In this document: positions 45,978 to 53,317 of the stretch, piece by piece
How positions within the stretch are numbered: the stretch's first letter is position 1
Layout of the letters: the number at the start of each line of letters is the position of its first letter
From: Gemmatimonas sp.
Lineage (GTDB): Bacteria; Gemmatimonadota; Gemmatimonadetes; Gemmatimonadales; Gemmatimonadaceae
Direction of reading: 5' to 3'
NCBI GenBank assembly: GCA_011390885.1
Contig: JAABRO010000006.1
Coordinates: 1-64,000 of the forward strand
Length of the DNA: 64,000 nucleotides
Notes under the pieces: generated by a model
Database searches by the model: none
What the model saw: the letters and a program-made list of their open reading frames with translations, nothing else
What the model was told of the DNA's origin: nothing
Translations under genes and position numbers: made by a program

Positions 45978-46277
45978 CTAGAGGTCGCCGCGCTGCAGGA
46001 TGCGACGCGCGACCTGGTCGACGACGTCGAGCGTGTTGTAGGCGCCCTCGAGCACCTTGCGACGCAGCGCCGCGGTGCGCTCGGGGTCGAGCGTGTCGCG
46101 GTACTCGCCGTCGAGCTTGCGGGCCATCGACTTGCCCGACTCGGAGAGCTGCACCGAGTCGGCCTTGGACACGGGCGCAACCGGCGTGGGTGCCGCCTGC
46201 CCCTGGGTGTTCGTCGGCGCCACCGGGCTCACCGGGCGGTCGGGACGAATCGGATCGTAGCTGCCGAAGATCTTCAT
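45978..46277 (-). CDS. flgM: FlgM anti-σ28 factor
   Basis: A 99-residue FlgM that holds σ28 until the hook is complete. An unstructured Pro-rich N-terminus (IRPDRPVSPVAPTNTQG) precedes DSVQLSESGKSMARKL and the σ-binding C-terminal helices (ERTAALRRKVLEGAYNTLDV). GGAGGAGG lies about nine bases before the ATG. It is itself behind a σ28-like promoter, which gives the usual feedback, and is followed by cheY and cheZ. Confidence 0.85.
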   Translation of the reverse strand: MKIFGSYDPIRPDRPVSPVAPTNTQGQAAPTPVAPVSKADSVQLSESGKSMARKLDGEYRDTLDPERTAALRRKVLEGAYNTLDVVDQVARRILQRGDL

Positions 46278-49647: not shown

Positions 49648-50427
49648 TTACCGCAGGAGCTGCAGCACGCCCTGCGTCGACTGGTTGGCCTGCGCCAGCA
49701 TGGCCTGCGCCGCCTGCGTCAGCACGTTGCTGCGCGTGAACTGCGCCATCTCCTCGGCCATGTCCACGTCGCGGATGGTCGACTCCGCCGCGCGGAGGTT
49801 CACCACCGCCGTCTTGAGGTTCTCGGTCGTGTAGTCGAGGGCGTTCTGGCCGGCACCGATGGAGGCCAGCACGTCGTTGATGTCATCGAGGGCACCGTCC
49901 ACGCTGACAAGCGTGGCAGCAGCACCGGTCGCGATGACGGTCGGAGCGGCCAGCGTCACGGAGATGGTGTCGCCGGCACCGCCGTCGTAGCCGTCGTTCA
50001 CCTGGAACTCGAGCGTCTCGCCGAAGATCGCCGAGCCCTGGTAGTTCGTCGAGTCGACGATGCGCTGCGCCTCGGTGCCGAGCGCCGTGATCTCGGCGTC
50101 GAGGGTGGTCGCCACGGACGCATTGTTGTCGGACTCGCGCTGCATCACCAGCTCCTTCTGGCGCTCGAGGATGCGCTGCAGCGTCTGCGCCGAGCCTTCG
50201 GCGATCTGCAGCATGGCGTTGCCCTGCTGGGCGTTGTTCCCCGCCTGCACGAGCGAGCGGCTCTGCGCGCGCAGCTTGTTCGCGATCGACAGGCCGGCCG
50301 CGTCGTCACCGGCGCGGCTGATGCGCAGACCCGAGCTCAGCTTCCGCATGCTGCTCTCGGTGGCCATGTTGTTCACGAACATGTTGCGCGAGGACTGGAG
50401 CGCGCCGACGTTGGTGTTGATACGCAT
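49648..50427 (-). CDS. fliC: Flagellin
   Basis: A 259-residue short flagellin. The N-terminal D0/D1 helices (MRINTNVGALQSSRNMFVNN, then MRKLSSGLRISRAGDDAAGL) and the C-terminal helices (ESTIRDVDMAEEMAQFTRSN, then MLAQANQSTQGVLQLLR) are fully conserved; only about 60 residues separate them, so domains D2 and D3 are missing. It is expressed from a σ28 promoter through a 73-base leader with CsrA-type motifs. It is the only flagellin in the window. Confidence 0.97.
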   Translation of the reverse strand: MRINTNVGALQSSRNMFVNNMATESSMRKLSSGLRISRAGDDAAGLSIANKLRAQSRSLVQAGNNAQQGNAMLQIAEGSAQTLQRILERQKELVMQRESDNNASVATTLDAEITALGTEAQRIVDSTNYQGSAIFGETLEFQVNDGYDGGAGDTISVTLAAPTVIATGAAATLVSVDGALDDINDVLASIGAGQNALDYTTENLKTAVVNLRAAESTIRDVDMAEEMAQFTRSNVLTQAAQAMLAQANQSTQGVLQLLR

Positions 50428-50432
50428 GATGG

Positions 50433-50470
50433 TCCTTCCTCCATGATGGTTGATGAGGCATCCGTGCCTC
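50433..50470 (-). promoter_or_regulatory. fliC leader hairpin and Shine-Dalgarno region with CsrA-type sites
   Basis: In the fliC mRNA, GAGGCA-CGGA-TGCCTC (50470-50455) is a 6-base stem with GGA in its loop, preceded by A-C, so the loop contains ANGGA in the form ACGGAUG. The Shine-Dalgarno region GGAGGAAGGA (50442-50433) contains two more ANGGA motifs (AUGGA, AAGGA). This is the two-site arrangement by which CsrA represses flagellin in Bacillus. The motifs are seen; CsrA binding is inferred, and csrA is not in the window. Confidence 0.6.
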
Positions 50471-50506
50471 TCCAGGGTCCGCGATGTGGATCCCGGTCAC
50501 GTTCTT

Positions 50507-50533
50507 CTTTCGGCACCTCGGCGGAGAACTTGA
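50507..50533 (-). promoter_or_regulatory. σ28 (FliA)-type promoter for fliC
   Basis: Minus strand TCAAGTTC, 11 bases, GCCGAAAG, against the consensus TAAAGTTT, 11 bases, GCCGATAA: six of eight matches in each box with the classic spacer. The predicted start is about 73 bases before fliC. Confidence 0.8.
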
Positions 50534-50647
50534 GCGTGACGTGGGCACTTTTTTCGGGACCCGTTCGCCCTCGGCATGGAGCGTCACGTGGCCGGCCGAA
50601 CGGCCGCGTCCCTGCGTGCTCCGCGCGCGCCTGACGGAAGCGCGGGC

Positions 50648-51733
50648 ATGACGACTCTGTCGCTCCCGCGCCGCGCCGTGGTGACCGGCGGCGCCGGATT
50701 CGTGGGTGGCGCCCTCGTGCGTCACCTGCTCGACGCCGGTTTCGAGCGTGTCGTGAGCTACGATGCGCTCACCTACGCCGCCAACCCGCTCGCGACCCAC
50801 GGCACCTGGCCGGCAGATCCCCGCCACACCCTCGTGGTGGGTGATGTCCGCGACAGCGACCGGCTGCTCGAGACGTTGCACGCCGTGCAGCCCACCGTGG
50901 TGTTTCATCTGGCGGCCGAATCGCACGTGGACCGATCGATCGATGCCCCGCGCCGGTTCGTGGAAACCAATGTGCTTGGCACCGAGGGCATGCTCACCGC
51001 CTGCCGCAGCTACTGGAGCGACGCGCCGACGATGCTGCGCGAGGGATTTCGCGTCGTGCACTGCTCCACCGACGAGGTCTTCGGCGCTGCCGGGCCCGGC
51101 GAGTGGTTCACCGAGCGGTCACCCTACGCGCCCAACTCACCCTACTCGGCCAGCAAGGCCGCGGCCGATCATCTCGCGCGCGCGTGGCACCATACCTATG
51201 GACTGCCCGTGGTGGTCTCGAACTGCGGCAACAACTACGGCCCGTTCCAGTTCCCCGAGAAGCTCATTCCCCACATGCTCGTGCGGGCGCTGCGTGGCGA
51301 CACGCTCCCCGTCTACGGCGACGGCGCCCAGGAACGGGACTGGATTCACGTCACCGATCACGCGGCCGCGCTGCTTCGACTCGCCGAGTCGGGCACGCCC
51401 GGCAGCACCTACCTGGTGGGCGCGCGCGCGGTGCGCCGAAATCTCGAGGTCGTCACCGCCCTCTGCGACACGCTCGACCGCCTGGCCCCACGGCCGGACG
51501 GCGTCCCGCACGCCACGGCGATCCGGTTCGTGACCGACCGGCCGGGCCACGACACACGCTACGCACTCGACCCCACGCGCTTCGAGCGTGAGCTCGGCTG
51601 GCGACCGCGGGTATCCTTTGCCGACGGGCTCGCCGACACGGTGGCCTGGTACCTCGAACACCGCGCGTGGTGGCAGTCGATCCTCGACGGCGCCTATCGC
51701 GCCGAGCGACTCGGGCTGGGCGCGGTCTCCTGA
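50648..51733 (+). CDS. rmlB: dTDP-glucose 4,6-dehydratase
   Basis: A 361-residue extended SDR with VTGGAGFVGGALVRHLLDAGF (NAD site), HLAAESHVDRSIDAP, HCSTDEVFGAAGPGEWF (T-D-E catalytic motif), YSASKAAADHLARAW (Y-x3-K) and CGNNYGPFQFPEKLIP. It makes dTDP-4-keto-6-deoxyglucose. The other rml genes are absent. It lies alone between fliC (divergent) and fliW (convergent), so a role in flagellin or surface glycosylation is plausible but unproven. Confidence 0.9.
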   Translation: MTTLSLPRRAVVTGGAGFVGGALVRHLLDAGFERVVSYDALTYAANPLATHGTWPADPRHTLVVGDVRDSDRLLETLHAVQPTVVFHLAAESHVDRSIDAPRRFVETNVLGTEGMLTACRSYWSDAPTMLREGFRVVHCSTDEVFGAAGPGEWFTERSPYAPNSPYSASKAAADHLARAWHHTYGLPVVVSNCGNNYGPFQFPEKLIPHMLVRALRGDTLPVYGDGAQERDWIHVTDHAAALLRLAESGTPGSTYLVGARAVRRNLEVVTALCDTLDRLAPRPDGVPHATAIRFVTDRPGHDTRYALDPTRFERELGWRPRVSFADGLADTVAWYLEHRAWWQSILDGAYRAERLGLGAVS

Positions 51734-51760: not shown

Positions 51761-52300
51761 TCAGAGCGTCACCGCCACCTGCAGGCCATAGCGCTCATCC
51801 GCCCGCACGATCTGCCGGGCGCGACGGCGCGCGAGGTTGAACACGATCGGGCCGCGCAGGTTCGTGGTGGCGGTGCCGGTCGCGGACGCCGGCAGGGTCA
51901 CGACGGTGAGCACGAGCGCGTCATCCGGCGTCGTGATCTGGAGAAAGGCCTCGTCGCCCGGCCCGAGGTCCACCTCGTAGCCCTCCTGCGCGCGGAACGG
52001 GTCCATGAGCAGGAACGTGAGCCCCTGTTCGGCGGTGGACTGCAGCCACCAGAAGCCGTCACGTGCGGCCGCAACCAGCGCGAACTCGCGCTCCGCCGGG
52101 AAGCCGTGCAGCCCCTCGGGAAACGTGATGAGCTGGTCGTGGGCCAGGGTGAGTTCCCCGAGCAGCGCCGAGGCGACGGTGCGGCCTTCGGCGGCCTGGG
52201 TGGTGAGGGGTTCGGAAGCGGACAGGCTGGAGGCGCGAGGCGCGACAACGGACATGGACTGCTCGGGCGGGACGGGACCGGTCGATCCGTCGACGGTCAC
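51761..52300 (-). CDS. fliW: FliW flagellar assembly factor
   Basis: A 179-residue FliW: GELTLAHDQLITFPEGLHGFPAEREFALV, ARDGFWWLQSTAEQGLTFLLMDP and TTNLRGPIVFNLARRRARQIV are family signatures. FliW binds free flagellin and, when released, binds CsrA and lifts its repression of flagellin translation. The GTG start lies 2 bases behind flgL. The partner csrA, often adjacent to fliW, is absent from the window. Confidence 0.93.
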   Translation of the reverse strand: MTVDGSTGPVPPEQSMSVVAPRASSLSASEPLTTQAAEGRTVASALLGELTLAHDQLITFPEGLHGFPAEREFALVAAARDGFWWLQSTAEQGLTFLLMDPFRAQEGYEVDLGPGDEAFLQITTPDDALVLTVVTLPASATGTATTNLRGPIVFNLARRRARQIVRADERYGLQVAVTL

Positions 52301-52302
52301 GC

Positions 52303-53214
52303 TCAGAGATAGTTGGCGAGGCTCAATCCAAGCACTCGCGAGGTGGCCGACATCGCGGCCTGGTACAGCGTCTGCTTGCCCACCAGCTCGACCATCGTCT
52401 TGTCCACTTCGGTATCGCGAAGCTCGGAGCGGAAGGTCTTGAGGGTGAGCTCGAGGTCGCCGAGGGAGAGCTCGGCGGCATCGAGGTCATTCGCGCGCGC
52501 GCCGACGCGTCCCACGAGCGACTGCACGCTCGAAATCGAGTCGCGCAGCGCGTCGATGGAGGTCCCGATCGCCGGCACGTCGTCGGCGCCGAGCGCCTCG
52601 GAGAAGTCGCGCAGCGCCTGGAGGGCGTTCGTGTCGAGGAAGACCTCGGTGCCGTTGTGGTTCGGTGTGAGGAAGCGGCCGTCGCCGATCTCGATGGCGA
52701 TGTTGCCGCTCGGGTTCACCGGGTCGCCGAGCGCGTCGGTGAGGTTGGTGAACTCGCCGCCCAGGGTGAGCGGGTTGCGGAAGGGCTGTTCGCCGCCCCG
52801 TGTGCCGCCGAAGAGGAACTCGTCGCCGAAGCGCACGTTGCCCAGGCCGACGGCGAAGTCGATGAGCGCATCCACCTCGGCCTTGACCGCGAGGCGCGTT
52901 TCGGCCGTGGCGGTGCTGGACGCCTGCCCGATGGCCAGTTCGAGGCCACGGGTGAGCACGTTGGTGAGGCTGTCGAGGGTGCGTTCCTCGGTCTCCACGC
53001 GGCCCACGCCGATCCGGATGTTGCGCCGGAACTGCTCGATGGCGCGCATGGAGCTGCCGGCGCGCACGACCTGGTCGGCGGCGGTCGGGTCCTGCGACAT
53101 CTTCCGCAGGCGAAGGCCCGTGGCGAGGTCCGTGCGCGCCCGCTCCATGCCCTGCAGGTTGGTCTGCAGGGCGTTGACGGAGTTGCGGAGCACGATCTGG
53201 TTGGTGACGCGCAT
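52303..53214 (-). CDS. flgL: FlgL hook-filament junction protein
   Basis: A 303-residue FlgL/HAP3 with flagellin-like ends (MRVTNQIVLRNSVNALQTNLQG at the start; LVGKQTLYQAAMSATSRVLGLSLANYL at the end). FlgL joins FlgK to the filament. The gene flgK usually precedes it but is not in the window. It heads flgL-fliW behind a σ28 promoter. Confidence 0.93.
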   Translation of the reverse strand: MRVTNQIVLRNSVNALQTNLQGMERARTDLATGLRLRKMSQDPTAADQVVRAGSSMRAIEQFRRNIRIGVGRVETEERTLDSLTNVLTRGLELAIGQASSTATAETRLAVKAEVDALIDFAVGLGNVRFGDEFLFGGTRGGEQPFRNPLTLGGEFTNLTDALGDPVNPSGNIAIEIGDGRFLTPNHNGTEVFLDTNALQALRDFSEALGADDVPAIGTSIDALRDSISSVQSLVGRVGARANDLDAAELSLGDLELTLKTFRSELRDTEVDKTMVELVGKQTLYQAAMSATSRVLGLSLANYL

Positions 53215-53290: not shown

Positions 53291-53317
53291 ATGTCGGCTC
53301 GGCGCGCGGAAACTTGA
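53291..53317 (-). promoter_or_regulatory. σ28 (FliA)-type promoter for flgL-fliW
   Basis: Minus strand TCAAGTTT, 11 bases, GCCGACAT. The -35 matches TAAAGTTT at seven of eight positions. The predicted start is about 70 bases before flgL; the region is shared with the divergent regulator gene. Confidence 0.8.

Follow-up and report, generated by a model that had tools for sequence, protein, structure and literature searches.

The window, by which we mean the whole 64-kb stretch of Gemmatimonas DNA analysed here, carries a flagellin gene, fliC, whose short leader contains two predicted CsrA sites, with fliW and flgL nearby. The features referred to below are as follows:

45978..46277, minus strand: flgM-like anti-sigma28 gene (Pfam FlgM, E 2.4e-4, 21.7 bits, slightly below the curated 25)
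49648..50427, minus strand: fliC, flagellin of 259 aa (Pfam Flagellin_N 9.4e-27, Flagellin_C 9.7e-23; ATG at 50427)
50428..50500, minus strand: 5' leader of fliC, ~73 nt, its start placed from the -10 element by promoter geometry
50431..50444, minus strand: predicted CsrA site 2, AUGGAGGAAGGACC, over the Shine-Dalgarno site, with two ANGGA motifs
50455..50470, minus strand: predicted CsrA site 1, the hairpin GAGGC[ACGGAU]GCCUC
50502..50533, minus strand: sigma28-type promoter of fliC, TCAAGTTC (-35) - N11 - GCCGAAAG (-10), an exact consensus match at 50533-50510
51761..52300, minus strand: fliW (Pfam FliW 1.6e-31, 109.9 bits, cut-off 25)
52303..53214, minus strand: flgL (Flagellin_N and Flagellin_C), adjoining fliW on its upstream side with a 2-nt gap to the fliW frame
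53294..53317, minus strand: sigma28-type promoter of flgL-fliW, TCAAGTTT-N11-GCCGA, an exact match

The fliW gene, the sole copy in the genome, lies 1.87 kb from fliC (start to start) and probably forms one operon with flgL. The GTG start listed for it probably lies further upstream than the true one: the FliW domain begins only at residue 58, and an ATG at 52255 is one alternative. Between fliC and fliW, and divergent from them, is a gene on the plus strand (50576-51733) encoding an NAD-dependent epimerase/dehydratase-like protein (RmlB-like by eye), perhaps a filament sugar gene. Also found in the window are fliS and genes for FliT-like and FlgM-like proteins.

Exact matches to TCAAGTTY-N11-GCCGA occur only twice in the 64 kb, upstream of fliC and upstream of flgL (53317-53294), and when up to two mismatches are allowed, nine matches are observed in the window against 1.6 expected. 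Among 101 related flagellin leaders, 36 have T[ACT]AAG followed at a fixed 20-nt offset by [CGT]CGA[AT], with none at that offset in shuffled sequences. The sigma28 promoter that the initial annotation had placed before the flagellin gene, with fliW about 1.9 kb away, is thus where it was said to be. A profile search of the window's draft genome for fliA returned nothing above the family cut-off, whilst fliA was found in seven of the seven relatives searched. In two genomes of the same genus (G217 and G243) fliA is located upstream of csrA at a distance of ~7.7 kb; since csrA in the window's genome is 5.2 kb from the end of its contig (C34), a fliA gene at that distance would fall off the contig. 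Most likely, then, fliA of this genome falls in an assembly gap.

The initial annotation had also described a stem-loop with GGA in its loop and two ANGGA motifs over the Shine-Dalgarno site, and closer inspection bears this out. The hairpin (50470-50455) has five outer pairs, each with a computed pairing probability of at least 0.99, and an inner A-U pair with a probability of 0.69, so that the loop is either a hexaloop or a CGGA tetraloop. Site 2 comprises AUGGA (50444-50440) and AAGGA (50437-50433), both overlying the Shine-Dalgarno site (AUGGAGGAAGGA), and no stem of at least 3 bp encloses it in this leader. The Shine-Dalgarno GGA is 15 nt before the start codon and the loop GGA 36 nt before it, a separation of 21 nt. 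Flanking the Shine-Dalgarno stretch, CCATCATG is directly repeated (50447-50425, minus strand), the upstream ATG being out of frame. The folding energy of the leader as a whole is not unusual (z -0.59), and one sequence alone could therefore not settle the question; nor did Rfam provide a credible match for the leader, only a chance one. What exceeds chance is the retention of the hairpin across relatives.

To examine this, 105 flagellin leaders were collected from Gemmatimonadota genomes, of which 101 were distinct and long enough to be used. A leader was scored as having the hairpin if, 28-48 nt ahead of the start codon, GGA occupied places 3-5 of a hexaloop (ANGGAN) on a stem of four or more Watson-Crick pairs. 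By this strict test the hairpin is present in 88 of the 101 leaders, compared with a mean of 0.3 and a maximum of 2 in dinucleotide shuffles, and when all 64 trinucleotides were tried at the loop position, only GGA exceeded 1. The 13 leaders that fail mostly have a short or bulged stem; when no stem is required, ANGGA is found at -30 to -47 in 99 of 101. Almost all of these (96/99) also have ANGGA over the Shine-Dalgarno site, with 20-28 nt (median 23) between the loop GGA and the Shine-Dalgarno GGA. Since GGA is part of every strong Shine-Dalgarno site, site 2 by itself is weak evidence. The Shine-Dalgarno part of alignment A1 was misaligned by MAFFT, and spacing and site 2 were for this reason counted on position-anchored sequences. 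One contig (C283, from G302; locus L252) carries two tandem flagellin genes: the first has the CsrA-type hairpin, the second (L066) a Shine-Dalgarno motif without site 1.

Covariation was measured in an alignment of 35 diverse leaders, where 96.6% of the alignment cells pair and compensatory changes are seen in all five pairs of the stem. Doubly changed cells number 41, a figure reached in none of 500 shuffles, against 9.2 expected, and controls in which the pairing partner was slid gave 2-5. The stem sequence drifts (GAGGC, GGAGC, GGGGA, CGGGGC and others) whilst the loop keeps its A, G, G and A. In 61 of 98 leaders the Shine-Dalgarno motif has at least three closing pairs of its own, the third of which shows covariation.

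A covariance model of the leader has fliC as its sole match in the 4-Mb genome to which the window belongs (E 6.5e-5); the next match (E 1.3) is inside a purE/purK-like coding region and was rejected, as were weaker matches, as chance. The fliC leader of E. coli, a species with CsrA and without FliW, has no ANGGA. A Gemmatimonadota genome with a flagellin and neither fliW nor csrA (G248) was considered as a natural negative control, and its flagellin leader has no such hairpin, but this is given little weight: the protein looks alphaproteobacterial and contamination is possible.

The window's genome encodes one CsrA of 81 aa (71.5 bits, cut-off 27) on contig C34, its gene starting 14 nt after flgK. 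With csrA behind flgK and fliW behind flgL, each sits beside a gene for a hook-filament junction protein. Among 15 Gemmatimonadota CsrA proteins sampled, Arg44 is present in all and Asn55 in 13, including the protein from the window's genome, which also has a C-terminal extension. FliW binding is reported to depend on Asn55 in B. subtilis, C. jejuni, C. difficile and G. sulfurreducens (PMC13407953). The two exceptions are a genome that yielded neither FliW nor flagellin (G075) and one with FliW present and Thr at position 55 (G202).

Several features of csrA itself were seen along the way. In the most distant family (f11), the csrA start regions of G001 (L233) and G011 (L234) read AUC[AAGGAU/C]GAU over the gene's own Shine-Dalgarno site, by eye an ANGGAN hexaloop with 4-5 closing pairs, which suggests that CsrA may regulate its own synthesis there. 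Autoregulation is possible in the window's genus too, where the csrA Shine-Dalgarno site (L001, L224) reads GACGGAGC, an ANGGA motif. In family f11 (G001, G003, G005, G007) each genome has two copies of csrA, one of them ~3.5 kb from fliW, and several flagellins.

That the window belongs to Gemmatimonadota, as the initial annotation had it, is borne out by G080, a genome of the same family whose sequence is identical to that of Gemmatirosa kalamazoonensis along 20 kb of plasmid. Profile searches of 395 Gemmatimonadota genomes found flagellin in 103, FliW in 97 and CsrA in 102. All three occur together in 96 genomes, none of the three in 289 and a subset in ten, some of which are incomplete assemblies or weak matches. 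CsrA without flagellin is limited to three genomes, so that 99 of the 102 csrA genomes are flagellated. Flagella are known to be produced by G. groenlandica and G. phototrophica (PMC9862903). One genome (G026) was dropped as a flagellated genome for want of a flagellin N-domain, and in three order-level relatives (G030, G044, G295) FliW was matched as two separate pieces, the middle being missing or diverged.

Taken together, the two sites, the conservation and covariation seen among related leaders, and the finding that all three genes are present and largely share one distribution lead us to propose, with a probability of about 0.9, that the fliC leader is a two-site CsrA operator forming part of a flagellin-FliW-CsrA feedback switch. 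The binding by CsrA, the repression and the relief by FliW are modelled on Bacillus and Campylobacter. In outline, sigma28 would transcribe fliC, and one face of a CsrA dimer would hold the upstream hairpin by its ANGGAN hexaloop while the other held the Shine-Dalgarno ANGGA, which in the window lies 21 nt further downstream, so that the ribosome is blocked. Export of flagellin into the filament would free FliW, which would bind CsrA via the Asn55 region and lift the block; accumulating flagellin would take FliW away again and translation would stop. Such a homeostatic switch was predicted in the initial annotation, which looked to the presence of csrA elsewhere in the genome and to conservation of the loop GGA and Shine-Dalgarno motifs in related leaders; csrA behind flgK and the conserved, covarying hairpin support it well as a prediction.

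A stable hairpin ahead of a highly expressed gene can protect the transcript, and the fliC hairpin might accordingly be a 5' stabiliser or a ribosome standby element with no involvement of CsrA. We consider this improbable: a stem that drifts by compensatory change around a fixed A, G, G and A, in a loop where GGA alone of 64 trinucleotides is enriched, speaks against it, and the loop is the known CsrA hexaloop (PMC4894983). Equally hard to sustain is the idea that CsrA binds the leader but is relieved by CsrB-like small RNAs or another protein. The Thr55 CsrA of G202, found alongside FliW, would fit an antagonist of this sort, but the near-perfect co-occurrence of FliW and CsrA and the Asn55 in 13 of 15 CsrA proteins do not, and the distribution of BarA-UvrY, the driver of CsrB/C, among bacteria is anti-correlated with that of FliW (PMC4682653). 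That the pattern arose by chance, GGA being common near start codons and the whole-leader fold unremarkable, is already refuted by the comparative data (88/101 leaders against 0.3 in shuffles, with covariation in every pair).

A FliW-CsrA operator in Gemmatimonadota would extend a control circuit familiar from a small number of model bacteria to an entire phylum that has been little studied, and the sequence evidence is strong enough for decisive mutants to be designed straight away. It also defines a conserved RNA element that Rfam lacks. More tentatively, and at somewhat less than even odds, the two-hexaloop leader may be one ancient RNA element common to Gemmatimonadota, Bacillota and Campylobacterota, with CsrA in Gemmatimonadota acting essentially as a dedicated flagellin regulator rather than as a global regulator of carbon metabolism. 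The latter suggestion is made because csrA is almost confined to flagellated genomes and because the leader model matches fliC only in the one genome tested. The results also support a proposal made for Campylobacter, according to which controlling flagellin may have been the earlier role of CsrA (PMC4894983).

Gemmatimonadota is not among the many phyla named in a survey of where FliW occurs (PMC4682653), and we found no account of FliW or CsrA in this phylum in the open-access literature, in keeping with the initial annotation, which knew of no experimental description. The predicted switch is itself a known one, placed here in a further phylum: leaders of this kind are widespread in Bacillota, and the Gemmatimonadota case is an extension of a known system. 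In B. subtilis the hag leader has two CsrA sites, one of them over the Shine-Dalgarno site, and FliW is the protein antagonist of CsrA (PMC7652899, PMC6529632), a layout like that described here. By our own count, flagellin leaders from Bacillota carry the same two motifs, including ANGGA at -30 to -47, in 75 of 77 cases, with a median spacing of 24 nt. Stem sequences differ between Bacillus and Gemmatimonadota, as does gene order: Bacillus has fliW-csrA, whereas in the window's genome the two genes are on separate contigs, fliW behind flgL and csrA behind flgK. CsrA/RsmA translational operators of Gammaproteobacteria likewise place GGA both in the loops of hairpins and at Shine-Dalgarno sites, but the antagonists there are small RNAs of the CsrB/C type, unlike FliW. 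The flaA leader of C. jejuni carries a pair of ANGGA motifs 21 nt apart in adjacent hexaloops. These are proven CsrA sites there, and their stems are kept by compensatory changes (PMC4894983), as is the stem of site 1 in Gemmatimonadota. The Campylobacter leader is 45 nt long and flaA mRNA is localised to the poles; the predicted fliC leader of the window is ~73 nt.
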